From: Nymphaea colorata
Taxonomy: Eukaryota > Streptophyta > Magnoliopsida > Nymphaeales > Nymphaeaceae
Length of the DNA stretch: 64,000 bases
Direction of reading: 5' to 3'
NCBI RefSeq assembly: GCF_008831285.2
Contig: NC_045143.1
Coordinates: 12,885,214-12,949,213, forward strand
Within the stretch, counting starts at the first letter, position 1; every line of letters begins with the position of its first letter. Below the pieces are notes generated by a model. The model had not been told where the DNA came from. It did not search any database and worked only from the letters and a program-made list of their open reading frames with translations. Made by a program: the position numbers and the translations under genes. Of this stretch, positions 9,475 to 52,500 are shown piece by piece.

Positions 9475-9478
<4 letters not shown>

Positions 9479-9514
<36 letters not shown>

Positions 9515-9545
9515 CTTCATGACCATAGGGTCGAACAATCTATTT

Positions 9546-9616
<71 letters not shown>
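9479..9616 (+). repeat. (AT)n and compound (AT)n(GT)n microsatellites
   Basis: An (AT)n run at about 9479-9511 is followed by a second (AT)n at about 9551-9577 that passes directly into a (GT)n run ending near 9616. Confidence 0.9.
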
Positions 9617-11129: not shown

Positions 11130-21693
<10,564 letters not shown>

Positions 21694-26330: not shown

Positions 26331-26581
26331 AGATTCCATGAACCAGGCCACTGGCTTGCATTTATTTGTGGTGCTGTCTTGAGCTAATTGTGAGGAAGCT
26401 TCTGAGTACGAGGAGCAGGTTTTCAAGAGTGCACTTACACTATCAAGACTACTGTTGAGACAGGTTCATACAGTTGGTGGACCACCTTGTCTGGCCGAAA
26501 GCAAGGAAACAATTTTCAATGTCTGCATTCATTTCCCATGCTCACACCTTGAGGACAAGGTGTTTTTCAAGGGAGGAGTAC

Positions 26582-26801
26582 TGTTAGGGACCTGGTCCTG
26601 GGTTGTGGGTCAGGCCCCTTAGACTGACCCAGGAACAGGTATAAATAAGGGTTGGGCAGCTGTAATTAGAGGATGGCAGAACATATCGGGCGTCCTTCTG
26701 GGAGGAGAAACCCTAATCTGGAGATTAGGGTTGAGAGTATGCTTGTGTATTTGGGGATTTCTCTTGTACTAAGGGTTTTCCAAGGTTAGCGGTGGTTAAC
26801 A
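26582..26801 (+). repeat. 3' LTR of the non-autonomous element
   Basis: 220 bp with TGTTA/TAACA terminal inverted repeats. It contains a TATA-like tataaataa (about 26640-26648) and a duplicated agggtt/ccctaatc hairpin (about 26706-26730), and follows a purine-rich tract. Confidence 0.75.
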
Positions 26802-28164: not shown

Positions 28165-28537
28165 TGTTAAAATATAAATCCTTCACCAACACGTTGAAGA
28201 GGAGTCTCTTAGGATTCCACCTCCTTGTAGAATGTGAAGATATTTAATGTCCTTGTAACATGTGAAGAGTCTCCTAGGATTCTATGTTGTAGTTAATATC
28301 CTTGTTATATGGGAAGTCTCCTAGGATTCTATGTTGTAGTTAATATCCTTGTAATATGTGAAGTCTCTTAGGTTTCTATGATGTAATTAATGTCCTTGGA
28401 GCTTGTGAAATCTCCTAGGATTCTACGATTGGAGACTCTTAGAATTCTGGAAATGAGATTATAAATAGAGGCCGTGCAAACCATTTTGGCTACGACTTCT
28501 TCTCCTCAGTTTCTTCTTGTTTTCATTCTCTCTCTCC

Positions 28538-28573
<36 letters not shown>

Positions 28574-28634
28574 CTCTATCTTCCTGCATGAGTGCTGTTT
28601 GCTGGTTACAGATATTGGTGCTAGATTTCTATCA
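28165..28634 (+). repeat. 5' LTR of Copia copy 2
   Basis: 470 bp, TGTTAAAATATAAA...TTTCTATCA; the microsatellite (CT)n(AT)n is longer than in its 3' LTR. Confidence 0.96.
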
Positions 28635-28646
28635 TGGTATCAGAGC
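28635..28646 (+). promoter_or_regulatory. Primer binding site (initiator Met tRNA), copy 2
   Basis: TGGTATCAGAGC directly after the 5' LTR. Confidence 0.93.
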
Positions 28647-28855
28647 GCCAGGTTACGTTATCTCTACCAAACGAAATGCCCAAACAGGTCTGATCTGGTT
28701 AGAACTCTTTTCTCATCTTGTCTCTATCCTGAATTTACTTTTGTCTTGCGCAATTCTTGTTCCTTTTTCTTCTTGCTTACCCAAGGACACATCTTGTTAT
28801 ATCGTGTCTTCTTTCCCTCTCATCTTCTACCTATATACCATTCCTTTCTGCTGTC

Positions 28856-31800
28856 ATGGAAAACCTTTCGTATTCTGGCATGTCCTCAAGTTTTCTTCCT
28901 CACCTTATTACCGAAAAACTCAACCATGAGAATTATTTGATCTGGAAAAGGCAAATCATGCCTTTCATAAGAAGTCAAGGCCTCTTTGGACATCTCGATG
29001 GTTCAACAAAGGCTCCACCAATATCCGTCTTACAGGAAATAAAAAATGAGGCAGGAGAAGTTATTGCTGTTCATGAAGACAACAATCCTGAACATGCTAT
29101 GTGGATGAGACGTGATCAAAGTCTGGTTGCGTATATTTTGTCCACTTTATCTCAACAAGTGTTACTTTCAGTTTCTGATGATTGTACTGCAGAAGAATTA
29201 TGGGAAACCCTTGCTGATACCTTTTCCCAAATATCAGAAGCTCGAATTATGTACTTAAAGAAAGAATTTCAAAATTTGAGCAAAGGTTCAACGTCTATCA
29301 TGGATTATTTGGGGCGTATTAAGGTCGTCGCAGACCAACTTGCTGCCTCAGGGAATAACATTTCTGATAAGGAAAAGGTGCAGCAAACCTTGAATGGACT
29401 TGGGCATGATTATCATGCTTTTATTACAGCTCTTGAGGTCCTTCCTGTTCTGCCTTCCTTCAACGAACTACAAGGTAAACTTCTCCAACATGAAATGAAT
29501 ATAAAAAGAGTCATTGAAAGGACTGATCAAGGGAACTCCCAAAATGTGTTGGCTATGAATGTAAAGTTTGGTAAGAGCCATGGGAACTCCAACCATGGTG
29601 GTCGTGGCATTCTACCAACACCACATAACCAAGGTATGTCTCCTTTGGATACTTCAAGAAAAATACCAATTTGTTTTCAGTGCAACAAGAAAGGACACAT
29701 GAAGGCACAATGTTGGTTTAATCCTCAAAATAAAAACAAAGGGGTAAGACATGATTATAAACAAGGAGGACAAAGTTCTAAATCCACCGCTGAAGATATG
29801 CAACAGCTATTGATGACCGCATTCTCAAAGATGACTATAAAGCAAAATGAGCAGGGAGAATGGTTCTTGGATTCAGGTGCAGCTACCCATGTGACAGGAA
29901 ATGCAGGTAAATTGACTAACTTATCCCCTCATTACGGTAGAAGTTGCATTATAACAGGTGATGGAAAATCTCATCCTATTACACATATTGGAAATGCACA
30001 TATTCCATTGTCATCCTCGTCTCTATCACTGTCTAATGTTGTTCTTGCTCCCAATATCAAAAAGAACATCATATCCATTTCTAAACTCATTGATGATACA
30101 AGCTCTTTTGTTGAATTCACACCTTCTTCTGTATATGTCAAGGACCTCCAAACGAAGAAAATGTTCGCTAGAGGGGAGCGTCAGGGGAATATGTACGTCC
30201 TCAAGGAATGTCTACCCAAGGATGGATCCACTTTTGATATAGGATTGAAGACATTTTCTCTTTCTCATAATGCGTCATCAGTGCCAAGTTCTTGCCATTT
30301 TCAATCAAAAGTAAGGGGCCCTAACCAATTTTTGGAGTCTGATTTGTGGCATAGTCGGCTAGGACACTGTGGTCGACATTTCATTGAAAAACTTGTCATA
30401 GATAGTCTCATTCCAAGATCAAGTTTACCTCTTACTTCAAGTGTCAAAAAATGTTCAAGTTGTGGACTTTGTAAGAGTCATGTTTTACCTTTCCATAATA
30501 TAAATCAAAGGGCTTTCAAACCTTTTGAAACTATTTTTTCTGATGTATGGGGGCCAGCCCCTATTGATTCTATGTCTGGGTCAAGATATTATGTCTTATT
30601 CATTGACTCTTACTCACGTTTCACCTGGATTTACTTCATGAAACACAAATCAGAAGTACCTCACATATTTCGAAACTTCTATGCCATGATTCAAACTAAA
30701 TTTTCATCCAATGTGGTGCATTTTCAATGTGATGGAGGGGGAGAATATTCCTCGCTTGATTTTATTGAATTTCTACGTGAAAAAGGGATAACTAGACAAA
30801 TTTTTTGCCCTTACACACCACAACAAAATGGTGTAGTTGAGCGGAAACATCGACATATAGTTGAAAGCACCATGAGCATGATGCATGATAATAATGTGCC
30901 CATTTCCTTGTGGACTGAAGCCTTTCATACTGCTGTATACATAATAAATTGTTTGCCTATGACACTCTTGATGTCTAAATCGCCATATTTTACACTCTTA
31001 GGCAAACAACCTGATTACAAGAACTTGAAGGTTTTTGGTTGTGTATGCTATGTTCACGTTGATGCTGCCTTGAGGAACAAGTTTCAAGACAAAGCTATTC
31101 AATGTAGATTCGTTGGATATGCTGATGAATATAAAGGTTTTCGATGCTATGATCCAACAACTAAACGTATCAAAACTTCAAGAAATGTCATTTTTGATGA
31201 ACATAGTTTTGATAATACAAATGAAATGCCTATGACCATTGAATCTTATGATCCCTGGACCAGTACACAGTTATTCAATGCAGATCCTGTTATAGAAAAT
31301 GATGTGCCTCAAAGTGAAGATTCAGAGAGAGCAATACAACCGTCGGATATGGCTCAAAGTGAAAATCAAGAAGATCCAACACAGTCATCAAGTCATCACG
31401 AAAACAATAATGAAGAACAGAGCAACGATGCACATCGGTATTTAGGTCTTATCTACAGTCGACGACTAAGGGACAGAGATGCTCACAGTGAAGAAGACAA
31501 CATGCCCCACCTTAGAAGATCCCAACGCATTCGTCATCCCATTCACAGGTGGGTTAGCTATGATTCTTTATCACTTGATTTTCAGTTATTCATGGCAAAA
31601 GTTGGCAAGGAGGAAGAACCTACTTCATTTGATCAGGCATCAAAATCACATCATTGGAGAAAGGCTATGAAAGAAGAAATGGATGCCTTGCATGAATGTG
31701 GAACATGGGAGATCGTCCCAAGGCCATACGAAAAGAACGTAGTGGGCTCCAAATGGGTATACAAAATTAAATACAAACCTGACGGCAGCATAGAAAGACA

Positions 31801-33174
31801 CAAAGCAAGGTTAGTAGCAAAAGGGTTTACACAACAATATGGAGAAGGTTATGATGAGACATTCAGCCCTGTGATCAAAATGAGAACAATTCGCGTGATT
31901 ATATCATTGACAGTTGAATATGGATGGAGACTACATCAAATGGACGTGAAGAATGCTTTTCTTCATGGTGATTTAAGGGAGGAAGTATATATGGAACAAC
32001 CTCCAGGATACACGAAAGGAGACTCTCATGCATGGGTTTGCAAACTAAGAAAATCTATTTATAGACTTAAACAGGCCTCACGTTCGTGGTTTGACAGTTT
32101 CTCTTGCAAGATTCAAGAATGTGGTTTTCGGAGATGTCCTCTAGATCACTCTCTTTTCATTTATCGAAAGGAAAACATATTTACTTTACTTCTTATATAT
32201 GTTGATGATATTGTTATCACAGACAATTCAGAAAAACACATAGAAGAAGCTAAAGTTTTGATGATGCAAAACTTCAAAATGAAAGAGCTTGGTGATTTAC
32301 GATTCTTTCTTGGAGTGGAGATTGATAGGCACAATAATCGCCTCACATTGACACAACAGAAATACACGTTGGATCTGCTGAAAAAGTCAGGTATGTCTGA
32401 TTGTAAACCTGTTGGAACTCCTAGTGTTCTAAATTAAAGACTAAGTGCTCAAGATGGGGAGTTATATGAAGATCCTACGCAATATCGAAGTATTGTTGGG
32501 GCACTTCAATATCTTACATTTACTAGACCAGATATTAATATGTTGTGAATCAAGTATCTCAATTTATGCATGCACCTAGAGATACTCACATGGATGCTGT
32601 CAAAAGAATATTAAGATATCTTAAAGGGACAGCAGGAGATGGCTTAGTTTATGGTAAGAGTGAAAATATAACTACTGGACATCAACTTATGACATTCACA
32701 GATGCAGATTGGGCTGGAGATCCCGATCAAAGAAAGTCCATTTCTGGTTTTTGTATTTTCATTGGACGTAATCTTGTGTCTTGGAGTTGTCAAAAGCAAA
32801 AGGCAGTAGCAAGATCCAGCACTGAAGCTGAATACAGATGCATGGCTGCGGGTACTGCTGAAGTTACATGGGTTAGACATTTGCTAGAAGACATTGGAGA
32901 GAAGATTAAAACATCAATGTTAATGTGCGATAATTAAAGCGCTATTAACATTGCCTTTAATCCCGTACAACATGGTCGAACAAAGCACATTGAGATTGAT
33001 CAACACTTTGTTAGACAAAAGGTGGAAGACAAGGAGATTCAGCCTATTTATGTTCGTACAGATGAACAAGTTGCAGACTTATTTACAAAAGGATTAACAA
33101 AGGAATGATTCTGGTTTCTAAAAGGCAAGTTGTACATGGTGCAAAACCATGCACAACTTGAGGGAGGGTGTTAA
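28856..33174 (+). pseudogene. Copia gag-pol polyprotein, copy 2, broken
   Basis: The frame is open from MENL (ATG 28856) for 1193 codons, through gag, protease (DSGA), integrase and most of RT (YVDD retained). A TAA at 32435-32437 replaces a CAA. A one-base deletion near 32538 shifts the frame. TAA at 32935-32937 and TGA at 33106-33108 interrupt the RNase H region, from CAA and CGA in the intact copy. RT also has YRLKQAS where the intact copy has YGLKQAS. Not able to encode RNase H in one protein. Confidence 0.95.
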
Positions 33175-33628
33175 AATATAAATCCTTCACCAGCACGTTG
33201 AAGAGGAGTCTCTTAGGATTCCACCTCCTTGTAGAATGTGAAGATATTTAATGTCCTTGTAATATGTGAAGAGTCTCCTAGGATTCTATGTTGTAGTTAA
33301 TATCCTTGTTATATGGGAAGTCTCCTAGGATTCTATGTTGTAGTTAATATCCTTGTAATATGTGAAGTCTCTTAGGTTTCTATGATGTAATTAATGTCCT
33401 TGGAGCTTGTGAAATCTCCTAGGATTCTACGATTGGAGACTCTTAGAATTCTGGAAATGAGATTATAAATAGAGGCCGTGCAAACCATTTTGGCTACGGC
33501 TTCTTCTCCTCAGTTTCTTCTTGTTTTCATTCTCTCTCTCCCTCTCTCTCTCTATATATATATATATCTCTATCTTCCTGCGTGAGTGCTGTTTTCTGGT
33601 TACAGATATTGGTGCTAGATTTCTATCA
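33169..33628 (+). repeat. 3' LTR of Copia copy 2
   Basis: 460 bp, preceded by the polypurine tract gagggaggg (33160-33168) and followed by the TSD GTTGG. Confidence 0.96.
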
Positions 33629-33904
33629 GTTGGTGGCCTTGTTTTGGTTGGATGCTAATGACAAACAAACTTACCAAGTCAAATAGAGATCTAAAATGTA
33701 TTAGCAAGTCGACCTTGAGCCCAATTTGTTGAGTTCGAGTACTCGAGCTTGAGCAGCAAGCTAAGTATTTCAGGTGTCAAACTGAGCTTCAGCTGGCCCA
33801 ACTAGAGGTCGGTTTGTCTCGTATTCACCCTAATTAATAAGCCCATAGTTGATAGTTGTCAAACTCACTGATTCGAGTCATGAGTCATTTGAGTAGGATA
33901 GGAT
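33629..33904. other. 276-bp spacer between Copia copies 2 and 3
   Basis: Unique, non-element DNA flanked by the TSDs of the two neighbouring elements (GTTGG on the left, AGGAT on the right). By eye the same 276 bp recur base for base at 43790-44065. Confidence 0.9.
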
Positions 33905-34262
33905 TGTTAAAATATAAAGCCTTCACCAGCACGTTGAAGAGGAGTCTCTTAGGATTCCACCTCCTTGTAGAATGTGTTAAAATATTTAATGTCCTTGTAA
34001 CATGTGAAGAGTCTCCTAGGATTCTATGTTATAGTTAATATCCTTGTTATATGGGAAGTCTCCTAGGATTCTATGTTGTAGTTAATATCCTTGTAATATG
34101 TGAAGTCTCTTAGGTTTCTATGATGTAATTAATGTCCTTGGAGCTTGTGAAATCTCTTAGGATTCTACGATTGGAGACTCTTAGAATTCTGAAAATGAGA
34201 TTATAAATAGAGGCCGTGCAAACCATTTTGGCTACGGCTTCTTCTCCTCAGTTTCTTCTTGT

Positions 34263-34306
<44 letters not shown>

Positions 34307-34358
34307 CCTGCGTGAGTGCTGTTTTCGGGTTACAGATATTGGTGCTACATTTCTATCA
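33905..34358 (+). repeat. 5' LTR of Copia copy 3
   Basis: 454 bp, same length and sequence as 44066-44519 as far as compared. Confidence 0.95.
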
Positions 34359-34578
34359 TGGTATCAGAGCGCCAGGTTACGTTATCTCTACCAAACGAAA
34401 TGCCCAAACAGGTCTGATCTGGTTAGAACTCTTTTCTCATCTTGTCTCTATCCTGAATTTACTTGTCTCTTGCGCAATTCTTGTTCCTTTTTCTTCTTGC
34501 TTACCAAGGACACATCTTGTTATATCGTGTCTTCTTTCCCTCTCATCTTCTACCTATATACCATTCATTTCTGCTGTC

Positions 34579-37500
34579 ATGGAAAACCTTTCGCATTCTG
34601 GCATGTCCTCAAGTTTTCTTCCTCACCTTATTACCGAAAAACTCAACCATGAGAATTATCTGATCTGGAAAAGGCAAATCATGCCTTTCATAAGAAGTCA
34701 AGGCCTCTTTGGACATCTCGATGGTTCAACAAAGGCTCCACCAATATCCGTCTTACAGGAAATAAAAAATGAGGCAGGAGAAGTTATTGCTGTTCATGAA
34801 GACAACAATCCTGAACATGCTATGTGGATGAGACGTGATCAAAGTCTGGTTGCGTATATTTTGTCCACTTTATCTCAACAAGTGTTTCTTTCAGTTTCTG
34901 ATGATTGTACTGCAGAAGAATTATGGGAAACCCTTGCTGATACCTTTTCCCAAATATCAGAAGCTCGAATTATGTACTTAAAGAAAGAATTTCAGAATTT
35001 GAGCAAAGGTTCAACGTCTATCATGGATTATTTGGGGCATATTAAGGCCGTCGCAGACCAACTTGCTGCCTCAGGGAATAACATTTCTGATAAGGAAAAG
35101 GTGCAGCAAACCTTGAATGGACTTGGGCATGATTATCATGCTTTTATTACAGCTCTTGAGGTCCTTCCTGTTCTGCCTTCCTTCAACGAACTACAAGGTA
35201 AACTTCTCCAACATGAAATGAATATGAAAAGAGTCATTGAAAGGACTGATCAAGGGAACTCCCAAAATGTGTTGGCTATGAATGTAAAGTTTGGTAAGAG
35301 CCATGGGAACTCCAACCATGGTGGTCGTGGCATTCTACCAACACCACATAACCAAGGTATGTCTCCTTTGGATACTTCAAGAAAAATACCAATTTGTTTT
35401 CAGTGCAACAAGAAAGGACACATGAAGGCACAATGTTGGTTTAATCCTCAAAATAAAAACAAAGGGGTAAGACATGATTATAAACAAGGAGGACAAAGTT
35501 CTAAATCCACCGCTGAAGATATGCAACAGCTATTGATGGCCGCATTCTCAAAGATGACTATAAAGCAAAATGAGCAGGGAGAATGGTTCTTGGATTCAGG
35601 TGCAGCTACCCATGTGACAGGAAATGCAGGTAAATTGACTAACTTATCCCATCATTACGGTAGAAGTTGCATTATAACAGGTGATGGAAAATCTCATCCT
35701 ATTACACATATTGGAAATGCACATATTCCATTGTCATCCTCGTCTCTATCACTGTCTAATGTTGTTCTTGCTCCCAATATCAAAAAGAACATCATATCCA
35801 TTTCTAAACTCATTGATGATACAAGCTCTTCTGTTGAATTCACACCTTCTTCTGTCTATGTCAAGGACCTCCAAACAAAGAAAATGTTCGCTAGAGGGAG
35901 CGTCAAGGGAATATGTACGTCCTCAAGGAATGTCTACCCAAGGATTCATCCACTTTTGATATAGGATTGAAGACATTTTCTCTTTCTCATAATGCGTCAT
36001 CAGTGCCAAGTTCTTGCCATTTTCAATCAAAAGTAAGGGGCCCTAACCAATTTTTGGAGTCTGATTTGTGGCATAGTCGGCTAGGACACTGTGGTCGACA
36101 TTTCATTGAAAAACTTGTCACAGATAGTCTCATTCCAAGATCAAGTTTACCTCTTACTTCAAGTGTCAAAAAATGTTCAAGTTGTGGACTTTGTAAGAGT
36201 CATGTTTTACCTTTCCATAATATAAATCAAAGGGCTTCCAAACCTTTTGAAACTATTTTTCTGATGTATGGGGGCCAGCCCCTATTGATTCCATGTCTGG
36301 GTCAAGATATTATGTCTTATTCATTGACTCTTACTCACGTTTCACCTGGATTTACTTCATGAAACACAAATCAGAAGTACCTCACATATTTCGAAACTTC
36401 TATGCCATGATTCAAACTAAATTTTCATCCAATGTGGTGCATTTTCAATGTGATGGAGGGGGAGAATATTCCTCGCTTGATTTTATTGAATTTCTACGTG
36501 AAAAAGGGATAACTAGACAAATTTCCTGCCCTTACACACCACAACAAAATGGTGTAGTTGAGCGGAAACATCGACATATAGTTGAAAGCGCCATGAGCAT
36601 GATGCATGATACTAATGTGCCCATTTCCTTGTGGACTGAAGCCTTCCATACTGCTGTATACATAATAAATTGTTTGCCTATGACACTCTTGATGTCTAAA
36701 TCGCCATATTTTACACTCTTAGGCAAACAACCTGATTACAAGAACTTGAAGGTTTTTGGTTGTGTATGCTATGTTCACGTTGATGCTGCCTTGAGGAACA
36801 AGTTTCAAGACAAAGCTATTCAATGTAGATTCGTTGGATATGCTGATGAATATAAAGGTTTTCGATGCTATGATCCAACAACTAAACGTATCAAAACTTC
36901 AAGAAATGTCATTTTTGATGAACATAGTTTTGATAATACAAATGAAATGCCTATGACCATTGAATCTTATGATCCCTGGACCAGTACACAGTTATTCAAT
37001 GCAGATCCTGTTATAGAAAATGATGTGCCTCAAAGTGAAGATTCAGAGAGAGCAATACAACCGTCGGATATGGCTCAAAGTGAAAATCAAGAAGATCCAA
37101 CACAGTCATTAAGTCATCACGAAAACAATAATGAACAGAGCAACGATGCACATCGGTATTCGGGTCTTATCTACAGTCGACGACTAAGGGACAGAGATGC
37201 TCACAGTGAAGAAGACAACATGCCCCACCTTAGAAGATCCAACGCATTCGTCATCCCATTCACAGGTGGGTTAGCTATGATTCTTTATCACTTGATTTTC
37301 AGTTATTCATGGCAAAAGTTGGCAAGGAGGAAGAACCTACTTCATTTGATGAAGCATCAAAATCACATCATTGGAGAAAGGCTATGAAAGAAGAAATGGA
37401 TGCCTTGCATGAATGTGGAACATGGGAGATCGTTCCGAGGCCACACGAAAAGAACGTAGTGGGCTCCAAATGGGTATACAAAATTAAATACAAACCTGAC

Positions 37501-38890
37501 GGCAGCATAGAAAGACACAAAGCAAGGTTAGTAGCAAAAGAGTTTACACAACAATATGGAGAAGATTATGATGAGACATTCAGCCCTGTGATCAAAATGG
37601 GAACAATTCGCGTGATTATATCATTGGCAGTTGAATATGGATGGAGACTACATCAAATGGACGTGAAGAATGCTTTTCTTCATGGTGATTTAAGGGAGGA
37701 AGTATATATGGAACAACCTCCAGGATACACGAAAGGAGACTCTCATGCATGGGTTTGCAAACTAAGAAAATCTATTTATGGACTTAAACAAGCCTCACGT
37801 TCGTGGTTTGACAGTTTCTCTTGCAAGATTCAAGAATGTGGTTTTCGGAGATGTCCTCTAGATCACTCTCTTTTCATTTATCGAAAGGAAAACATATTTA
37901 CTTTACTTCTTATATATGTTGATGATATTGTTATCACAGGCAATTCAGAAAACACATAGAAGAAGCTAAAGTTTTGATGATGCAAAACTTCAAAATGAAA
38001 GAGCTTGGTGATTTACGATTCTTTCTTGGAGTGGAGATTGATAGGCACAATAATCGTCTCACATTGACACAACAGAAATACACGTTGGATTTGTTGAAAA
38101 AGTCAGGTATGTCTGATTGTAAGCCTGTTGGAACTCCTAGTGTTCTAAATCAAAGACTAAGTGCTCAAGATGGGGAGTTATATGAAGATCCTACGCAATA
38201 TCGAAGTATTGTTGGGGCACTTCAATATCTTACATTTACTAGACCAGATATTATATATGCTGTGAATCAAGTATCCCAATTTATGCATGCACCTAGAGAT
38301 ACTCACATGGATGCTGTCAAAAGAATATTAAGATATCTTAAAGGGACAGCAGGAGATGGCTTAGTTTATGGTAAGAGTGAAAATATAACTACTGGACATC
38401 AACTTATGACATTCACAGATGCAGATTGGGCTGGAGATCCCGATCAAAGAAAGTCCATTTCTGGTTTTTGTATTTTCATTGGACGTAATCTTGTGTCTTG
38501 GAGTTGTCGAAAGCAAAAGGCAGTAGCAAGATCCAGCACTGAAGCTGAATACAGATGCATGGCTGCAGGTACTGCTGAAGTTACATGGGTTAGACATTTG
38601 CTAGAAGACATTGGAGAAAAGATTAAAACATCAATGTTATGTGCGATAATCAAAGCGCTATTAACATTGCCTTTAATCCCGTACAACATGGTCGAACAAA
38701 GCACATTGAGATTGATCAACACTTTGTTAGACAAAAGGTGGAAGACAAGGAAATTCAGCCTATTTATGTTCGTACAGATGAACAAGTTGCAGACTTATTT
38801 ACAAAAGGATTAACAAAGGAACGATTCTGGTTTCTAAAAGGCAAGTTGTACATGGTGCAAAACCATGCACAACTTGAGGGAGGGTGTTAA
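34579..38890 (+). pseudogene. Copia gag-pol polyprotein, copy 3, apparent frameshifts
   Basis: Starts at the same ATG (34579, MENL) as the intact copy. Single-base losses at about 35895 (GGGG to GGG), 36257 (T run), 37239 (CCC to CC), 37950 (A run) and 38638 (AA to A) break the frame into six pieces. All protein motifs remain present piecewise. Because the twin sequence at 44740-49056 is intact, these breaks are most likely uncorrected sequencing errors near a contig end and not biological mutations. Confidence 0.9.
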
Positions 38891-39239
38891 AATATAAAGC
38901 CTTCACCAGCACGTTGAAGAGGAGTCTCTTAGGATCCACCTTCTTGTAGAATGTGTTAAAATATTTAATGTCCTTGTAACATGTGAAGAGTCTCCTAGGA
39001 TTCTATGTATAGTTAATATCCTTGTTATATGGGAAGTCTCCTAGGATTCTATGTTGTAGTTAATATCCTTGTAATATGTGAAGTCTCTTAGGTTTCTATG
39101 ATGTAATTAATGTCCTTGGAGCTTGTGAAATCTCCTAGGATTCTACGATTGGAGACTCTTAGAATTCTGAAATGAGATTATAAATAGAGGCCGTGCAAAC
39201 CATTTTGGCTACGGCTTCTTCTCCTCAGTTTCTTCTTGT

Positions 39240-39283
<44 letters not shown>

Positions 39284-39335
39284 CCTGCGTGAGTGCTGTT
39301 TTCGGGTTACAGATATTGGTGCTACATTTCTATCA
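38885..39335 (+). repeat. 3' LTR of Copia copy 3
   Basis: 451 bp, three single-base losses (near 38934, 39008 and 39170) relative to the twin LTR at 49051-49504. Confidence 0.93.
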
Positions 39336-39337
39336 AG

Positions 39338-39437
39338 NNNNNNNNNNNNNNNNNNNNNNNNNNNNNNNNNNNNNNNNNNNNNNNNNNNNNNNNNNNNNNN
39401 NNNNNNNNNNNNNNNNNNNNNNNNNNNNNNNNNNNNN
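39338..39437. other. Assembly gap, exactly 100 N
   Basis: One hundred N, the conventional size for a scaffold join of unknown length. The left contig ends two bases into the TSD of copy 3; the right contig begins inside the gag region of a copy-2-like element. Confidence 0.99.
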
Positions 39438-42400
39438 CTTGCTGATACCTTTTCCCAAATATCAGAAGCTCGAATTATGTACTTAAAGAAAGAATTTCAG
39501 AATTTGAGCAAAGGTTCAACGTCTATCATGGATTATTTGGGGCGTATTAAGGCCGTCGCAGACCAACTTGCTGCCTCAGGGAATAACATTTCTGATAAGG
39601 AAAAGGTGCAGCAAACCTTGAATGGACTTGGGCATGATTATCATGCTTTTATTACAGCTCTTGAGGTCCTTCCTGTTCTGCCTTCCTTCAACGAACTACA
39701 AGGTAAACTTCTCCAACATGAAATGAATATAAAAGAGTCATTGAAAGGACTGATCAAGGGAACTCCCAAAATGTGTTGGCTATGAATGTAAAGTTTGGTA
39801 AGAGCCATGGGAACTCCAACCATGGTGGTCGTGGCATTCTACCAACACCACATAACCAAGGTATGTCTCCTTTGGATACTTCAAGAAAAATACCAATTTG
39901 TTTTCAGTGCAACAAGAAAGGACACATGAAGGCACAATGTTGGTTTAATCCTCAAAATAAAAACAAAGGGGTAAGACATGATTATAAACAAGGAGGACAA
40001 AGTTCTAAATCCACCGCTGAAGATATGCAACAGCTATTGATGCCGCATTCTCAAAGATGACTATAAAGCAAAATGAGCAGGGAGAATGGTTCTTGGATTC
40101 AGGTGCAGCTACCCAGTGACAGGAAATGCAGTAAATTGGACTAACTTATCCCCTCATTACGGAGAAGTTGCATTATAACAGGTGATGGAAAATCTCATCC
40201 TATTACACATATGGAAATGCACATATTCCATTGTCATCCTCGTCTCTATCACTGTTAATTGTCTTGCCCCATATCAAAAGAACATCATATCATTCTAAAC
40301 TCATTGATGATACAAGCCTTTTGTTGAATTCACACCTTCTTCTGTATATGTCAAGGACCTCCAAACGAAGAAATGTCGCTAGAGGGGAGCGTCAGGGGAA
40401 TATGTACGTCCTCAAGGAATGTCTACCCAAGGATGGATCCACTTTTGATATAGGATTGAAGACATTTCTCTTTCTCAAATGCGTCATCAGTGCCAAGTTC
40501 TTGCCATTTTCAATCAAAAGTAAGGGCCCTAACCAATTGGAGTCTGATTGTGGCATAGTCGGCTAGGACACGTGGTCGACATTTCATTGAAAAACTTGTC
40601 ATAGATAGTCTCATCCAAGATCAAGTTTACCTCTTACTTCAAGTGTCAAAAAATTTCAAGTTGTGGACTTGTAAGAGTCATGTTTACCTTTCCAAATATA
40701 AATCAAAGGCTTCAAACCTTTGAAACTATTTTTCTGAGTATGGGGGCCAGCCCCTATTGATCTATGTCGGGTCAAGATATAGTCTTATTCATTGACTCTT
40801 ACTCACGTTCACCTGGATTTACTTCATGAAACACAAATCAGAAGTACCTCACATATTTCGAAACTTCTATGCCATGATTCAAACTAAATTTCATCCAATG
40901 TGGTGCATTTCAATGTGATGGAGGGGAGAATTCCTCGCTTGATTTATTGAATTCTACGTGAAAAAGGGATAACTAGACAAATTTTTGCCCTTACACACCA
41001 CAACAAATGGTGTAGTTGAGCGGAAACATCGACATATAGTTGAAAGCACCATGAGCATGATGCATGATAATAATGTGCCCATTTCCTTGTGGACTGAAGC
41101 CTTCATACTGCTGTATACATAAAAATTGTTTGCCTATGACACCTTGATGTCTAAATCGCCATATTTACACTCTTAGGCAAACAACCTGATTACAAGAACT
41201 TGAAGGTTTTGGTTGTGTATGCTATGTTCACGTTGATGCTGCCTTGAGGAACAAGTTTCAAGACAAAGCTATTCAATGTAGATTCGTTGGATATGCTGAT
41301 AATATAAAGGTTTTCGATGCTATGATCCAACAACTAAACGTATCAAAACTTCAAGAAATGTCATTTTTGATGAACATAGTTTGATAATACAAATGAAATG
41401 CCTATGACCATTGAATCTTATGATCCCTGGACCAGTACACAGTATTCAATGCAGATCCTGTTATAGAAAATGATGTGCCTCAAAGTGAAGATCAGAGAGA
41501 GCAATACAACCGTCGGATATGGCTCAAAGTGAAAATCAAGAAGATCCAACACAGTCATCAAGTCATCACGAAAACAATAATGAAGAACAGAGCAACGATG
41601 CACATCGGTATTTAGGTCTTATCTACAGTCGACGACTAAGGGACAGAGATGCTCACAGTGAAGAAGACAACATGCCCCACCTTAGAAGATCCCAACGCAT
41701 TCGTCATCCCATTCACAGGTGGGTTAGCTATGATCTTTATCACTTGATTTTCAGTATTCATGGCAAAAGTTGGCAAGGAGGAAGAACCTACTTCATTTGA
41801 TCAGGCATCAAAATCACATCATTGGAGAAAGGCTATGAAAGAAGAAATGGATGCCTTGCATGAATGTGGAACATGGGAGATCGTCCCAAGGCCATACGAA
41901 AAGAACGTAGTGGGCTCCAAATGGGTATACAAAATAAATACAAACCTGACGGCAGCATAGAAAGACACAAAGCAAGGTTAGTAGCAAAAGGGTTTACACA
42001 ACAATATGGAGAAGGTTATGATGAGACATTCAGCCCTGTGATCAAAATGAGAACAATTCGCGTGATATATCATTGACAGTTGAATATGGATGGAGACTAC
42101 ATCAAATGGACGTGAAGAATGCTTTTCTTCATGGTGATTTAAGGGAGGAAGTATATATGGAACAACCTCCAGGATACACGAAAGGAGACTCTCATGCATG
42201 GGTTTGCAAACTAAGAAAATCTATTTATAGACTTAAACAGGCCTCACGTTCGTGGTTTGACAGTTTCTCTTGCAAGATTCAAGAATGTGGTTTTCGGAGA
42301 TGTCCTCTAGATCACTCTCTTTTCATTTATCGAAAGGAAAACATATTTACTTTACTTCTTATATATGTTGATGATATTGTTATCACAGACAATTCAGAAA

Positions 42401-43335
42401 AACACATAGAAGAAGCTAAAGTTTTGATGATGCAAAACTTCAAAATGAAAGAGCTGGTGATTTACGATTCTTCTTGGAGTGGAGATGATAGGCACAATAA
42501 TCGCCTCACATTGACACAACAGAAATACACGTTGGATCTGCTGAAAAAGTCAGGTATGTCTGATTGTAAACCTGTGGAACCCTAGTGTTCTAAATTAAAG
42601 ACTAAGTGCTCAAGATGGGGAGTTATATGAAGATCCTACGCAATATCGAAGTATTGTTGGGGCACTTCAATATCTTACATTTACTAGACCAGATATTAAT
42701 ATGTTGTGAATCAAGTATCTCAATTTATGCATGCACCTAGAGATACTCACATGGATGCTGTCAAAAGAATATTAAGATATCTTAAAGGGACAGCAGGAGA
42801 TGGCTTAGTTTATGGTAAGAGTGAAAATATAACTACTGGACATCAACTTATGACATTCACAGATGCAGATTGGGCTGGAGATCCCGATCAAAGAAAGTCC
42901 ATTTCTGGTTTTTGTATTTTCATTGGACGTAATCTTGTGTCTTGGAGTTGTCAAAAGCAAAAGGCAGTAGCAAGATCCAGCACTGAAGCTGAATACAGAT
43001 GCATGGCTGCGGGTACTGCTGAAGTTACATGGGTTAGACATTTGCTAGAAGACATTGGAGAGAAGATTAAAACATCAATGTTAATGTGCGATAATTAAAG
43101 CGCTATTAACATTGCCTTTAATCCCGTACAACATGGTCGAACAAAGCACATTGAGATTGATCAACACTTTGTTAGACAAAAGGTGGAAGACAAGGAGATT
43201 CAGCCTATTTATGTTCGTACAGATGAACAAGTTGCAGACTTATTTACAAAAGGATTAACAAAGGAATGATTCTGGTTTCTAAAAGGCAAGTTGTACATGG
43301 TGCAAAACCATGCACAACTTGAGGGAGGGTGTTAA
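39438..43335 (+). pseudogene. Copia gag-pol polyprotein fragment (assembly twin of copy 2)
   Basis: Begins at about codon 119 of gag because of the gap. CCHC knuckle, protease, integrase, RT (YVDD) and RNase H motifs are recognisable, but in many short frames. Most single-base losses look like sequencing errors; the nonsense codons shared with copy 2 are real element mutations. Confidence 0.9.
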
Positions 43336-43789
43336 AATATAAATCCTTCACCAGCACGTTGAAGAGGAGTCTCTTAGGATTCCACCTCCTTGTAGAATGT
43401 GAAGATATTTAATGTCCTTGTAATATGTGAAGAGTCTCCTAGGATTCTATGTTGTAGTTAATATCCTTGTTATATGGGAAGTCTCCTAGGATTCTATGTT
43501 GTAGTTAATATCCTTGTAATATGTGAAGTCTCTTAGGTTTCTATGATGTAATTAATGTCCTTGGAGCTTGTGAAATCTCCTAGGATTCTACGATTGGAGA
43601 CTCTTAGAATTCTGGAAATGAGATTATAAATAGAGGCCGTGCAAACCATTTTGGCTACGGCTTCTTCTCCTCAGTTTCTTCTTGTTTTCATTCTCTCTCT
43701 CCCTCTCTCTCTCTATATATATATATATCTCTATCTTCCTGCGTGAGTGCTGTTTTCTGGTTACAGATATTGGTGCTAGATTTCTATCA
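43330..43789 (+). repeat. 3' LTR, assembly twin of copy 2
   Basis: 460 bp, same as 33169-33628 including the shortened (CT)n(AT)n array. Confidence 0.95.
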
Positions 43790-44065
43790 GTTGGTGGCCT
43801 TGTTTTGGTTGGATGCTAATGACAAACAAACTTACCAAGTCAAATAGAGATCTAAAATGTATTAGCAAGTCGACCTTGAGCCCAATTTGTTGAGTTCGAG
43901 TACTCGAGCTTGAGCAGCAAGCTAAGTATTTCAGGTGTCAAACTGAGCTTCAGCTGGCCCAACTAGAGGTCGGTTTGTCTCGTATTCACCCTAATTAATA
44001 AGCCCATAGTTGATAGTTGTCAAACTCACTGATTCGAGTCATGAGTCATTTGAGTAGGATAGGAT
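43790..44065. other. 276-bp spacer (twin of 33629-33904)
   Basis: Identical by eye to 33629-33904, including both flanking target duplications. Being ordinary single-copy-like DNA, it is the clearest sign that the surrounding block is present twice in the assembly. Confidence 0.93.
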
Positions 44066-44171
44066 TGTTAAAATATAAAGCCTTCACCAGCACGTTGAAG
44101 AGGAGTCTCTTAGGATTCCACCTCCTTGTAGAATGTGTTAAAATATTTAATGTCCTTGTAACATGTGAAGA

Positions 44172-44359
44172 GTCTCCTAGGATTCTATGTTATAGTTAAT
44201 ATCCTTGTTATATGGGAAGTCTCCTAGGATTCTATGTTGTAGTTAATATCCTTGTAATATGTGAAGTCTCTTAGGTTTCTATGATGTAATTAATGTCCTT
44301 GGAGCTTGTGAAATCTCTTAGGATTCTACGATTGGAGACTCTTAGAATTCTGAAAATGA
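44172..44359 (+). repeat. 47-bp tandem repeats in LTR U3
   Basis: gtctcctaggattctatg and variants recur with exact 47-bp spacing, four times. They end just upstream of the TATA box, the usual place of LTR enhancer elements. The array is present in every LTR of the family in this window. Confidence 0.85.
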
Positions 44360-44362
44360 GAT

Positions 44363-44370
44363 TATAAATA
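44363..44370 (+). promoter_or_regulatory. LTR TATA box
   Basis: TATAAATA, positioned between the U3 repeats and the CT-rich leader; transcription would start about 30 bases downstream. The 3' LTR copy is at 49348-49355. Confidence 0.75.
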
Positions 44371-44423
44371 GAGGCCGTGCAAACCATTTTGGCTACGGCT
44401 TCTTCTCCTCAGTTTCTTCTTGT

Positions 44424-44467
<44 letters not shown>

Positions 44468-44519
44468 CCTGCGTGAGTGCTGTTTTCGGGTTACAGATAT
44501 TGGTGCTACATTTCTATCA

Positions 44520-44531
44520 TGGTATCAGAGC
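44520..44531 (+). promoter_or_regulatory. Primer binding site (initiator Met tRNA)
   Basis: TGGTATCAGAGC immediately after the LTR; primes minus-strand DNA synthesis. Confidence 0.95.
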
Positions 44532-44739
44532 GCCAGGTTACGTTATCTCTACCAAACGAAATGCCCAAACAGGTCTGATCTGGTTAGAACTCTTTTCTCA
44601 TCTTGTCTCTATCCTGAATTTACTTGTCTCTTGCGCAATTCTTGTTCCTTTTTCTTCTTGCTTACCAAGGACACATCTTGTTATATCGTGTCTTCTTTCC
44701 CTCTCATCTTCTACCTATATACCATTCATTTCTGCTGTC

Positions 44740-47700
44740 ATGGAAAACCTTTCGCATTCTGGCATGTCCTCAAGTTTTCTTCCTCACCTTATTACCGAAA
44801 AACTCAACCATGAGAATTATCTGATCTGGAAAAGGCAAATCATGCCTTTCATAAGAAGTCAAGGCCTCTTTGGACATCTCGATGGTTCAACAAAGGCTCC
44901 ACCAATATCCGTCTTACAGGAAATAAAAAATGAGGCAGGAGAAGTTATTGCTGTTCATGAAGACAACAATCCTGAACATGCTATGTGGATGAGACGTGAT
45001 CAAAGTCTGGTTGCGTATATTTTGTCCACTTTATCTCAACAAGTGTTTCTTTCAGTTTCTGATGATTGTACTGCAGAAGAATTATGGGAAACCCTTGCTG
45101 ATACCTTTTCCCAAATATCAGAAGCTCGAATTATGTACTTAAAGAAAGAATTTCAGAATTTGAGCAAAGGTTCAACGTCTATCATGGATTATTTGGGGCA
45201 TATTAAGGCCGTCGCAGACCAACTTGCTGCCTCAGGGAATAACATTTCTGATAAGGAAAAGGTGCAGCAAACCTTGAATGGACTTGGGCATGATTATCAT
45301 GCTTTTATTACAGCTCTTGAGGTCCTTCCTGTTCTGCCTTCCTTCAACGAACTACAAGGTAAACTTCTCCAACATGAAATGAATATGAAAAGAGTCATTG
45401 AAAGGACTGATCAAGGGAACTCCCAAAATGTGTTGGCTATGAATGTAAAGTTTGGTAAGAGCCATGGGAACTCCAACCATGGTGGTCGTGGCATTCTACC
45501 AACACCACATAACCAAGGTATGTCTCCTTTGGATACTTCAAGAAAAATACCAATTTGTTTTCAGTGCAACAAGAAAGGACACATGAAGGCACAATGTTGG
45601 TTTAATCCTCAAAATAAAAACAAAGGGGTAAGACATGATTATAAACAAGGAGGACAAAGTTCTAAATCCACCGCTGAAGATATGCAACAGCTATTGATGG
45701 CCGCATTCTCAAAGATGACTATAAAGCAAAATGAGCAGGGAGAATGGTTCTTGGATTCAGGTGCAGCTACCCATGTGACAGGAAATGCAGGTAAATTGAC
45801 TAACTTATCCCATCATTACGGTAGAAGTTGCATTATAACAGGTGATGGAAAATCTCATCCTATTACACATATTGGAAATGCACATATTCCATTGTCATCC
45901 TCGTCTCTATCACTGTCTAATGTTGTTCTTGCTCCCAATATCAAAAAGAACATCATATCCATTTCTAAACTCATTGATGATACAAGCTCTTCTGTTGAAT
46001 TCACACCTTCTTCTGTCTATGTCAAGGACCTCCAAACAAAGAAAATGTTCGCTAGAGGGGAGCGTCAAGGGAATATGTACGTCCTCAAGGAATGTCTACC
46101 CAAGGATTCATCCACTTTTGATATAGGATTGAAGACATTTTCTCTTTCTCATAATGCGTCATCAGTGCCAAGTTCTTGCCATTTTCAATCAAAAGTAAGG
46201 GGCCCTAACCAATTTTTGGAGTCTGATTTGTGGCATAGTCGGCTAGGACACTGTGGTCGACATTTCATTGAAAAACTTGTCACAGATAGTCTCATTCCAA
46301 GATCAAGTTTACCTCTTACTTCAAGTGTCAAAAAATGTTCAAGTTGTGGACTTTGTAAGAGTCATGTTTTACCTTTCCATAATATAAATCAAAGGGCTTC
46401 CAAACCTTTTGAAACTATTTTTTCTGATGTATGGGGGCCAGCCCCTATTGATTCCATGTCTGGGTCAAGATATTATGTCTTATTCATTGACTCTTACTCA
46501 CGTTTCACCTGGATTTACTTCATGAAACACAAATCAGAAGTACCTCACATATTTCGAAACTTCTATGCCATGATTCAAACTAAATTTTCATCCAATGTGG
46601 TGCATTTTCAATGTGATGGAGGGGGAGAATATTCCTCGCTTGATTTTATTGAATTTCTACGTGAAAAAGGGATAACTAGACAAATTTCCTGCCCTTACAC
46701 ACCACAACAAAATGGTGTAGTTGAGCGGAAACATCGACATATAGTTGAAAGCGCCATGAGCATGATGCATGATACTAATGTGCCCATTTCCTTGTGGACT
46801 GAAGCCTTCCATACTGCTGTATACATAATAAATTGTTTGCCTATGACACTCTTGATGTCTAAATCGCCATATTTTACACTCTTAGGCAAACAACCTGATT
46901 ACAAGAACTTGAAGGTTTTTGGTTGTGTATGCTATGTTCACGTTGATGCTGCCTTGAGGAACAAGTTTCAAGACAAAGCTATTCAATGTAGATTCGTTGG
47001 ATATGCTGATGAATATAAAGGTTTTCGATGCTATGATCCAACAACTAAACGTATCAAAACTTCAAGAAATGTCATTTTTGATGAACATAGTTTTGATAAT
47101 ACAAATGAAATGCCTATGACCATTGAATCTTATGATCCCTGGACCAGTACACAGTTATTCAATGCAGATCCTGTTATAGAAAATGATGTGCCTCAAAGTG
47201 AAGATTCAGAGAGAGCAATACAACCGTCGGATATGGCTCAAAGTGAAAATCAAGAAGATCCAACACAGTCATTAAGTCATCACGAAAACAATAATGAACA
47301 GAGCAACGATGCACATCGGTATTCGGGTCTTATCTACAGTCGACGACTAAGGGACAGAGATGCTCACAGTGAAGAAGACAACATGCCCCACCTTAGAAGA
47401 TCCCAACGCATTCGTCATCCCATTCACAGGTGGGTTAGCTATGATTCTTTATCACTTGATTTTCAGTTATTCATGGCAAAAGTTGGCAAGGAGGAAGAAC
47501 CTACTTCATTTGATGAAGCATCAAAATCACATCATTGGAGAAAGGCTATGAAAGAAGAAATGGATGCCTTGCATGAATGTGGAACATGGGAGATCGTTCC
47601 GAGGCCACACGAAAAGAACGTAGTGGGCTCCAAATGGGTATACAAAATTAAATACAAACCTGACGGCAGCATAGAAAGACACAAAGCAAGGTTAGTAGCA

Positions 47701-49056
47701 AAAGAGTTTACACAACAATATGGAGAAGATTATGATGAGACATTCAGCCCTGTGATCAAAATGGGAACAATTCGCGTGATTATATCATTGGCAGTTGAAT
47801 ATGGATGGAGACTACATCAAATGGACGTGAAGAATGCTTTTCTTCATGGTGATTTAAGGGAGGAAGTATATATGGAACAACCTCCAGGATACACGAAAGG
47901 AGACTCTCATGCATGGGTTTGCAAACTAAGAAAATCTATTTATGGACTTAAACAAGCCTCACGTTCGTGGTTTGACAGTTTCTCTTGCAAGATTCAAGAA
48001 TGTGGTTTTCGGAGATGTCCTCTAGATCACTCTCTTTTCATTTATCGAAAGGAAAACATATTTACTTTACTTCTTATATATGTTGATGATATTGTTATCA
48101 CAGGCAATTCAGAAAAACACATAGAAGAAGCTAAAGTTTTGATGATGCAAAACTTCAAAATGAAAGAGCTTGGTGATTTACGATTCTTTCTTGGAGTGGA
48201 GATTGATAGGCACAATAATCGTCTCACATTGACACAACAGAAATACACGTTGGATTTGTTGAAAAAGTCAGGTATGTCTGATTGTAAGCCTGTTGGAACT
48301 CCTAGTGTTCTAAATCAAAGACTAAGTGCTCAAGATGGGGAGTTATATGAAGATCCTACGCAATATCGAAGTATTGTTGGGGCACTTCAATATCTTACAT
48401 TTACTAGACCAGATATTATATATGCTGTGAATCAAGTATCCCAATTTATGCATGCACCTAGAGATACTCACATGGATGCTGTCAAAAGAATATTAAGATA
48501 TCTTAAAGGGACAGCAGGAGATGGCTTAGTTTATGGTAAGAGTGAAAATATAACTACTGGACATCAACTTATGACATTCACAGATGCAGATTGGGCTGGA
48601 GATCCCGATCAAAGAAAGTCCATTTCTGGTTTTTGTATTTTCATTGGACGTAATCTTGTGTCTTGGAGTTGTCGAAAGCAAAAGGCAGTAGCAAGATCCA
48701 GCACTGAAGCTGAATACAGATGCATGGCTGCAGGTACTGCTGAAGTTACATGGGTTAGACATTTGCTAGAAGACATTGGAGAAAAGATTAAAACATCAAT
48801 GTTAATGTGCGATAATCAAAGCGCTATTAACATTGCCTTTAATCCCGTACAACATGGTCGAACAAAGCACATTGAGATTGATCAACACTTTGTTAGACAA
48901 AAGGTGGAAGACAAGGAAATTCAGCCTATTTATGTTCGTACAGATGAACAAGTTGCAGACTTATTTACAAAAGGATTAACAAAGGAACGATTCTGGTTTC
49001 TAAAAGGCAAGTTGTACATGGTGCAAAACCATGCACAACTTGAGGGAGGGTGTTAA
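44740..49056 (+). CDS. Copia gag-pol polyprotein, intact (1438 aa)
   Basis: Encodes the capsid, protease, integrase, reverse transcriptase and RNase H of the element as one frame. The ATG at 44740 (MENL) is the first in-frame ATG; the frame is open further up into the LTR but without an ATG. Residue positions: CCHC zinc knuckle CFQCNKKGHMKAQC 273-286; protease DSGA with Asp339; integrase zinc region from His499 to the CSSC at 533; catalytic triad Asp563, Asp626, Glu662 (DD35E spacing); RT Asp1029 (HQMDVKNAF) and YVDD 1114-1117; RNase H Asp1282, Glu1323 and Asp1358. The stop TAA (49054-49056) lies inside the 3' LTR, so Cys1438 is encoded by the first three LTR bases. No catalytic residue is missing. 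Confidence 0.97.
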   Translation: MENLSHSGMSSSFLPHLITEKLNHENYLIWKRQIMPFIRSQGLFGHLDGSTKAPPISVLQEIKNEAGEVIAVHEDNNPEHAMWMRRDQSLVAYILSTLSQQVFLSVSDDCTAEELWETLADTFSQISEARIMYLKKEFQNLSKGSTSIMDYLGHIKAVADQLAASGNNISDKEKVQQTLNGLGHDYHAFITALEVLPVLPSFNELQGKLLQHEMNMKRVIERTDQGNSQNVLAMNVKFGKSHGNSNHGGRGILPTPHNQGMSPLDTSRKIPICFQCNKKGHMKAQCWFNPQNKNKGVRHDYKQGGQSSKSTAEDMQQLLMAAFSKMTIKQNEQGEWFLDSGAATHVTGNAGKLTNLSHHYGRSCIITGDGKSHPITHIGNAHIPLSSSSLSLSNVVLAPNIKKNIISISKLIDDTSSSVEFTPSSVYVKDLQTKKMFARGERQGNMYVLKECLPKDSSTFDIGLKTFSLSHNASSVPSSCHFQSKVRGPNQFLESDLWHSRLGHCGRHFIEKLVTDSLIPRSSLPLTSSVKKCSSCGLCKSHVLPFHNINQRASKPFETIFSDVWGPAPIDSMSGSRYYVLFIDSYSRFTWIYFMKHKSEVPHIFRNFYAMIQTKFSSNVVHFQCDGGGEYSSLDFIEFLREKGITRQISCPYTPQQNGVVERKHRHIVESAMSMMHDTNVPISLWTEAFHTAVYIINCLPMTLLMSKSPYFTLLGKQPDYKNLKVFGCVCYVHVDAALRNKFQDKAIQCRFVGYADEYKGFRCYDPTTKRIKTSRNVIFDEHSFDNTNEMPMTIESYDPWTSTQLFNADPVIENDVPQSEDSERAIQPSDMAQSENQEDPTQSLSHHENNNEQSNDAHRYSGLIYSRRLRDRDAHSEEDNMPHLRRSQRIRHPIHRWVSYDSLSLDFQLFMAKVGKEEEPTSFDEASKSHHWRKAMKEEMDALHECGTWEIVPRPHEKNVVGSKWVYKIKYKPDGSIERHKARLVAKEFTQQYGEDYDETFSPVIKMGTIRVIISLAVEYGWRLHQMDVKNAFLHGDLREEVYMEQPPGYTKGDSHAWVCKLRKSIYGLKQASRSWFDSFSCKIQECGFRRCPLDHSLFIYRKENIFTLLLIYVDDIVITGNSEKHIEEAKVLMMQNFKMKELGDLRFFLGVEIDRHNNRLTLTQQKYTLDLLKKSGMSDCKPVGTPSVLNQRLSAQDGELYEDPTQYRSIVGALQYLTFTRPDIIYAVNQVSQFMHAPRDTHMDAVKRILRYLKGTAGDGLVYGKSENITTGHQLMTFTDADWAGDPDQRKSISGFCIFIGRNLVSWSCRKQKAVARSSTEAEYRCMAAGTAEVTWVRHLLEDIGEKIKTSMLMCDNQSAINIAFNPVQHGRTKHIEIDQHFVRQKVEDKEIQPIYVRTDEQVADLFTKGLTKERFWFLKGKLYMVQNHAQLEGGC
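49042..49050 (+). promoter_or_regulatory. Polypurine tract
   Basis: gagggaggg directly before the 3' LTR; primes plus-strand synthesis. It is also coding, for the last residues of the polyprotein. Confidence 0.85.
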
Positions 49057-49408
49057 AATATAAAGCCTTCACCAGCACGTTGAAGAGGAGTCTCTTAGGA
49101 TTCCACCTTCTTGTAGAATGTGTTAAAATATTTAATGTCCTTGTAACATGTGAAGAGTCTCCTAGGATTCTATGTTATAGTTAATATCCTTGTTATATGG
49201 GAAGTCTCCTAGGATTCTATGTTGTAGTTAATATCCTTGTAATATGTGAAGTCTCTTAGGTTTCTATGATGTAATTAATGTCCTTGGAGCTTGTGAAATC
49301 TCTTAGGATTCTACGATTGGAGACTCTTAGAATTCTGAAAATGAGATTATAAATAGAGGCCGTGCAAACCATTTTGGCTACGGCTTCTTCTCCTCAGTTT
49401 CTTCTTGT

Positions 49409-49452
<44 letters not shown>

Positions 49453-49504
49453 CCTGCGTGAGTGCTGTTTTCGGGTTACAGATATTGGTGCTACATTTCT
49501 ATCA
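49051..49504 (+). repeat. 3' LTR of the intact Copia element
   Basis: 454 bp, same length as the 5' LTR and about 99.8% identical to it; followed by the TSD AGGAT. Confidence 0.97.
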
Positions 49505-49509
49505 AGGAT

Positions 49510-52500
49510 GATCCATTTACCAGGTCCTAAGTCAGGATCCACCAAATCAGCTTTGACCATCAACTAATTATATGTTCTTTTTTGTCTTGTATTGTTAAAT
49601 ACGATTGAAATTTTCAATTTTTGAATAGTGAAATATCACAAACTTTACTAAATGTACACAAATACTCATATTACATGTAATTCAATTTTCGTTGATGAAA
49701 GAATCAAGTCCTGATGGACTTACGTCCTTCTTCTATTTATAGAAAAATGCACTATAAAAATTTTTGACCTAACCCATTCGAGTTGCCAAGTCAACTCTAT
49801 GGCCCGGTGACCCAGTTTTCAGCCGAGTCCAAGTCATGGGCTTGCCAACTATGAATAAAGCTGATGAATTCTACTACTTTTAGCGACAATTAACATGATA
49901 TATGCTTTTTGATGGTTTTCATGTATACTAAAGATGATATTTCTGGTTTTTTTTTCCTTCGATCTACTATGAAGTAATGAGAGGCACCGCATTGATACCA
50001 TAGTTACAAAAAACATTCTTGCATTTTAAACAGCTGGGTTTTTCTCATGTATAATATACTGAACTTGAAAAAAAGGGTTAAAATACAATCAAACTTTTAA
50101 AAGTTTAATTTTAATAATTAAGGAAAAGTAAAATAAGTGAGAAACTAATAACATTGACATGTTGATCATCTTCGTACTATTTGCTCTTGATGTACTGTGT
50201 GAACAGATTGTTGTGACATTTGTTCAACAGGATGTTTCAACTTTCAATTTCCCTTATATGTTTTTCATAAAGATAGAAGATAAATTATCTTCTATTTGAG
50301 CTCCTGCATCCTACCATTCATGTGTGTATGGATTAGTGGATGGTACAAAAACTTTTGAGAATATCTGCCTAATTTATTTTCCTACATAATTATGATTGTT
50401 GTTTGTCTAGTAAATTTTCGTCAAAATTTTACATTTTATGATGTGATTCAACTTATTAATACTAAATCTTTTTCATTTTCTCTGTTCGAACAAGCAGGAT
50501 TAATTTTCTATTTATTTTTCTACTTTTTAACAGATAAAGAGGCTGGTATTAATTTTCTGAGTGTATCTGTGGGCATGTTTCACTAATGCTCATTTACAAG
50601 ACTTGCTTTAGGTTAGCTTGGTTTCAATTCATCAAGAATTTGGCATAATCAGGGCAGGTGATTTCTTGATCGTTCAAAGGACAGATTCTTTAATGTATAG
50701 AACTTGAGTGATTTTAAAGTCATATTCTCAAACTTGTAAGATTGAATGCCTTAAAGATATTCATTACAGTGCAGTTCTCTGACAGTTGGTATGCTATTTT
50801 CTGGTTGCTTTATTAATTAATTAGCTGAGCATTGTATCTCTAATTATGAAGTTTGTCTTGAATGGCAAAGCTTTTGTTCCTAGTTGAAATCAGGGCTAGT
50901 GATTGTGTGCTGAAAGAACTACTAATTTGGCCAAGTTATGCATGAAGGCGTCCGGTGTTAAAATAGCTTGATCTAATTGAGTTTGGATAGTGCATCCAGT
51001 CAATTTACAAAATATCCACTATGATATGATGAACAAAACATTAAGAGTTCTGCCTTTGGCCCTTGATTTGCTCTACATGTCAAATCATAAGGTGATTCCT
51101 TCGCCTATATGATAGCTTTTCAAAAAGAAGAAGCAAGTAGTCTTAATATCATTTGGCTGCATATTGGTATAATATGACATGACTGGAGATGTCAATTTTG
51201 AAATTCATGCTCTATTTTTGTGAAGCCATTTTTGGAATTTCATGTTTCCTCACAAGTAAAGTTCATAGCATGTCATTATACTGTTGATCATATATCATGA
51301 ACAATAAACTTAGAAGATGTTCTAAAGCATTTAATAGGTGGTAGTCTAAAAAAGGTTTTGTCAATGCAGTAGTTTTTGTTTTTGATTCAGCTTACTGTAC
51401 CATATTCCAATTGCTCAGCTTATGTTCTTCCCTTATTTTGTGTAGGGGAAGTGGGTTCAAGATTTAATCATAAGAACTTGTTTGGCATAACTTTTATACC
51501 TTAACTCATCAAACTATTTTGTTCTATGATTTGGAATGAATTTTATAGAATCATCTCTACATTGAGAATGCTGCTGCCACAGCTGGTTTTCTCGCCGGGC
51601 TTTGCATTTAACTTGATGAAACAGATTGTTTCTATTAGAAAAGGAGGAAACTGCTTTAAAATACTTTGTATGGATTGTGGGAGAGTAGTGGGATTACTTC
51701 CTCTATTAGAAGGTATACATTATGTTCCCTTCCTACCTGTTGTGCCTTTTTAATTTCTATTCTATTCTATATTGAGAAGCTTTTTTTTTTTTAATTTCCA
51801 TTCCGTTTTATATTTAACAAGCTTTATATTTCACCTATTGGTAAGGTTCTGGGCAATATGCTGAGTTTCTTGTGAAAATCCTTGCACGAGCTTGAGCTCA
51901 CTTGTATGGTAGTTTACTCTTGCTGAGATGTGGAGATAGGTTTACTGAAATTTCGCTGAACATTCGTAGAAATACTGAAAGTAATAGCTTTAGTGCTACA
52001 ATTTCTCCACATTATAATCTCACCTAAAAGTCCATAATATTAATGGATCTCCCTCGTAACATTCAAGCATAAAAAGTATTGTCTTTGTGGAATTTCATGA
52101 GGGTTTGCATGACAGCAGCTAAGGACCTTTGTTCGTGTACTGATCTAGGAAGAAAAGGTGCACTTTAAACTAATTTAGGATGATCTCTCTACTGATAGTT
52201 GCATGACAGATGGTATTTTTCCTGGTTAAGCAAGTTTCATTCATTTTGGACAAGCAGATGCTTCTTTTCTTATGTTTTCATCGTAGTTTTCAAGATTCAA
52301 ATGGGTCAATTACTTATTGAATCCTAAACCAGACAATTTAATCTACAGTTGCTGAATTTGTAGCGTGAAAGTGAAAAACACGTTCAAACTTGGGATTTGG
52401 TGCATTATTATTTTGTATTACTAATTAATGTTTGTCATTTTATATTTGTTACTGTTTCTTACAATGAGTACTAGTGTGTCTTGGATATTTTCAGCGAACT

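Follow-up and report, generated by a model that had tools for sequence, protein, structure and literature searches.

The window, i.e., the whole 64,000-nt stretch of DNA that was analyzed, contains a single run of N, the 100-letter gap at positions 39338 to 39437, which separates a left from a right contig and has LTR retrotransposons on both sides. The Pfam domains Retrotran_gag_2, gag_pre-integrs, rve, and RVT_2 identified these as Copia-type LTR retrotransposons. An RVT_2 reverse transcriptase, a copia-type gag, an integrase placed before the reverse transcriptase (gag at 191 to 339, rve at 675 to 776, and RVT_2 at 1070 to 1310), paired LTRs, and a target-site duplication (TSD) were all present. 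The window elements resemble Copia in the order of Gag, integrase, and reverse transcriptase, in LTRs of the form TG...CA, and in their 5-bp TSDs, and nothing unusual was seen in them.

With 2 kb of one of the elements, copy 2, as the query, at least 40 matches of about 99 to 100% identity were obtained, two of them in the window; the count is a lower bound, as 40 of 891 candidates were scored, 38 of these 40 lying outside the window. The family is young and highly amplified. Three of its members were delimited in the window, copy 1 at 12587 to 18052 on the minus strand, copy 2 at 28165 to 33628 on the plus strand, and copy 3 at 44066 to 49504 on the plus strand, with the distinct TSDs GAGGT, GTTGG, and AGGAT, respectively, and with 7 differences in 464, 5 in 460, and 1 in 454 positions between their LTRs.

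On the left contig, copy 2 (5.46 kb, plus strand) has its LTRs at about 28165 to 28634 and 33169 to 33628, which differ by 5 substitutions in 460 aligned positions, and is flanked on both sides by GTTGG. It is followed by a 276-bp spacer (33629 to 33904), which includes the right TSD GTTGG of copy 2 and the left TSD AGGAT of copy 3. Copy 3 then runs from 33905 to 39335 on the plus strand, and the left contig closes with AG at 39336 to 39337, identical to the first two bases of AGGAT. The right contig starts at 39438, 1,045 bp inside the same copy 2, which continues on the plus strand to 43789; the same spacer follows at 43790 to 44065, identical to its first appearance, and then copy 3 (44066 to 49504, plus strand) with AGGAT on both sides. 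The right TSD at 49505 to 49509 is followed by flanking sequence that has one full match in the assembly.

The intervals 29210 to 39337 (10,128 bases) and 39438 to 49506 (10,069 bases) aligned to each other as a single block of 10,137 columns with 99.2% identity, corresponding to an overlap length of 10.1 kb in head-to-tail order around the gap. The original prediction, that the same segment of about 10.1 kb is present twice around a 100-N gap, was thus borne out, and so was the series proposed for both intervals, the end of copy 2, GTTGG, the 276-bp spacer, AGGAT, and copy 3. The proposed end of the left contig two bases past the young element and the start of the right contig inside copy 2 were likewise recovered at 39337 and 39438. 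A finer global alignment resolved 76 differing places, made up of 3 substitutions, 64 places where the right contig lacks bases, and 9 where the left contig does, i.e., 73 indel places. Between the zones of error lies a core of 3,479 bases, starting at 32420, in which the two intervals show neither a substitution nor an indel. In both intervals, as had been predicted, copy 2 carries stop codons at 32435, 32935, and 33106, and its frame shifts between the first two of these; the stretch from 32420 to 33904 is identical to the letter.

Family-private substitutions, identified by comparison with as many as nine other members of the family, were then checked in the two intervals. The intervals have 28 of these in common in copy 2, over 3,500 scored columns, and another 9 in copy 3, over 4,529. 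Seven further entries in copy 2 were found in one interval only, three in the left and four in the right. The left-only entries are the substitutions at 29272 and 29325 and one on a base that the right contig lacks, and the four right-only entries fall in deletion places; the five entries on deletion places were discounted as alignment effects. Independent insertions of the elements on the two sides of the gap were ruled out by the common private substitutions, the TSDs, and the spacer.

In a search of the assembly (407.8 Mb, 783 contigs), the full-length spacer gave two matches, both at this locus, together with nine partial matches that were 69 to 79% identical. One full match each was obtained for the right flank (49510 to 51500) and the left flank (26160 to 28159), the next best matches being partial. 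Neither a third nor a merged version of the locus was found among the best candidates scored in the whole assembly including unplaced contigs. Since the search scores best candidates only, this would be strong but not complete evidence that the assembly holds no such version, and it stops short of proof that there are no further copies.

The missing bases are unevenly distributed along the contigs. All 68 bases that the right contig lacks are located at 39731 to 42581, within its first 3.2 kb, and 56 of them sit 0.5 to 2 kb from the contig start. On the left contig, eight of the nine places with missing bases are at 35896 to 39170, in the 3.5 kb before the gap; the remaining one, 29914, coincides with a tight group of right-contig errors and is most simply explained by the alignment itself. 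Errors do not become steadily denser as far as the contig end, since the 600 bp next to the gap on the right contig contain only one missing base and two substitutions (39500 and 39553). On the plus strand, the 68 bases absent from the right contig comprise 52 T, 7 A, 7 G, and 2 C (T versus A, binomial P = 5e-11), a bias that would fit a consensus built on a small number of reads in the same orientation.

The quality of copy 3 differs between the contigs in the same sense. In the right contig, it has a single uninterrupted frame with Copia domains, and its LTRs differ by 1 substitution in 454 positions with no gap opening. In the left contig, the frame is broken where the contig-end indels lie, and the LTRs differ by 2 substitutions and 3 gap openings. 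Copy 3 of the left contig therefore looks frame-broken and older because it stands at a contig end. The clustering of indels outside the core toward each contig's own end and the breaking of the copy 3 frame in the left contig only were not part of the original prediction.

A vote was taken among eight other family copies at 57 clusters of differences between the two intervals. The voters were copy 1 of the window and seven loci (L002 to L008) from the 38 scored matches outside it; the retrieved family loci contained no N runs. At 46 of the 57 clusters, the copies that matched either version matched the contig in which the place is interior, with support from 7 or 8 of the 8 copies at 44 clusters and from a single copy at 2. 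No copy was decisive at eight clusters, and at the remaining three all eight copies matched the contig end. In comparison with the other element of the window, 48 clusters near the start of the right contig gave the left version at 36, the right version at 1, and neither at 11, and 9 clusters near the end of the left contig gave the right version at 4, the left version at 1, and neither at 4.

The three opposite clusters are the three substitutions, 29272/39500, 29325/39553, and 39135/49303, none of them more than about 200 bp from a contig end. At all of them, the interior contig has a private base, a transition, where the contig end shows the family-common base found in 8 of 8 copies; this runs counter to simple random error. 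The substitution 39135/49303 is absent from the lists of private substitutions and rests on the alignment, the family vote, and a comparison of the LTRs: in each contig its private base occurs in the 5' LTR of copy 3, and the right contig has it in the 3' LTR as well. Its presence on these other LTRs indicates that the base is the element's own. The pattern suggests that reads from sister copies determined, or were used to polish, the last few hundred bases at either contig end.

As judged from the assembled sequence, the duplicated segment is very probably accounted for by unmerged overlapping contig ends of a draft assembly. The original prediction of such ends in place of a biological duplication was supported by the gap, the clean core, the polarity of the errors, the private substitutions, the spacer, and the TSD bases. 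The TSDs pair as expected across the gap, and the terminal AG of the left contig begins AGGAT, although this match comprises only two bases. The draft genome would have been sequenced with long reads, and the two contigs terminate within the same neighboring Copia pair, of a family with at least 40 near-identical matches. Because of this near-identical family, the overlap graph may have branched, so that the contigs would have stayed unjoined despite an overlap of about 10.1 kb. Scaffolding would then have set them adjacent with a 100-N filler and left the overlap in the sequence twice, and the terminal few hundred bases may have been determined by reads from sister copies. Most likely, the real locus consists of two Copia insertions 276 bp apart on the same strand, in the order left flank, GTTGG, copy 2, the 276-bp spacer (GTTGG...AGGAT), copy 3, AGGAT, and right flank.

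This fits a known kind of assembly error, homotype false duplication, which according to the legend of Extended Data Fig. 5b in Rhie et al. 2021 (PMC8081667) includes "overlapping sequences at contig boundaries." The same sequence flanks the assembly gap; at the sequence level, no haplotype variants are spread through the copies, the 3,479-base core being identical; and consensus quality is unequal between the copies, with errors near each contig's own end and a family vote in favor of the interior version. As in the homotype case of that legend, the same sequence stands in tandem at both contig ends with a gap between and with different consensus quality. Unlike in that case, the overlap at the present locus, known from the assembled sequence, falls in two LTR elements that are nearly identical, and the bases nearest the contig ends seem to have been drawn toward those common to the family.

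If the block of copy 2, spacer, and copy 3 had very recently undergone a real tandem segmental duplication, with the junction lost in the gap, the order would also be head to tail. Contig-end errors would be equally expected had a real duplication broken the assembly; low quality on both sides of the gap is thus predicted either way, and error polarity alone does not exclude such an event. Against it, the differences sit toward the contig ends and the core of 3,479 bp has none, which would limit the age of a duplication to less than roughly 30,000 years (estimated from an upper limit of 3/3479 at a rate of 1.3e-8 per site and year). Moreover, there is no sequenced junction between the units, the 100-N gap being the only place for one, and the left contig ends in AG and not in GT, the start of the spacer, which with two bases is a weak argument. 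Taken together, these observations leave a tandem duplication improbable. Unequal exchange between two elements was considered too and is disfavored; it predicts that copy 3 of the left contig is followed by the spacer, GT..., and AG is present, a difference of two bases only.

The contig ends might instead come from two haplotypes of a heterozygous individual, a heterotype false duplication, which Ko et al. 2022 (PMC9516828) also give as a common cause of duplicated sequence around gaps. Allelic variants spread through the overlap were not seen, however: the core of 3.5 kb shows no differences, and all 3 substitutions of the 10.1-kb overlap fall in the terminal 200 bp or so of a contig. Two haplotypes are a still more remote explanation than a tandem duplication. 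The least credible reading, which deserves almost no weight, treats the 100 N as letters masked by the operators of the data set, in which withheld stretches also read N, and the repeat as real. Against this reading, errors are concentrated to the left and right of the N run, as at contig ends, and exactly 100 N is a common gap filler.

If the segment stems from unmerged contig ends, it bears only on data quality and curation. Element counts, LTR dating, and calls of tandem duplication on NC_045143.1 would be off at this locus, and copy 3 of the left contig is unfit for dating or for calls of coding state. The locus further suggests that, where a contig ends within a young repeat family, its terminal sequence can shift toward the bases common to the family, an effect that a plain error model would overlook.

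Other repeats were also present in the window. The stretches 19902 to 20053 and 9468 to 9578 are self-complementary simple repeats that match one another, and 8896 to 9140 holds a tandem repeat of two 126-bp copies, 119 bp apart, with 96% identity.
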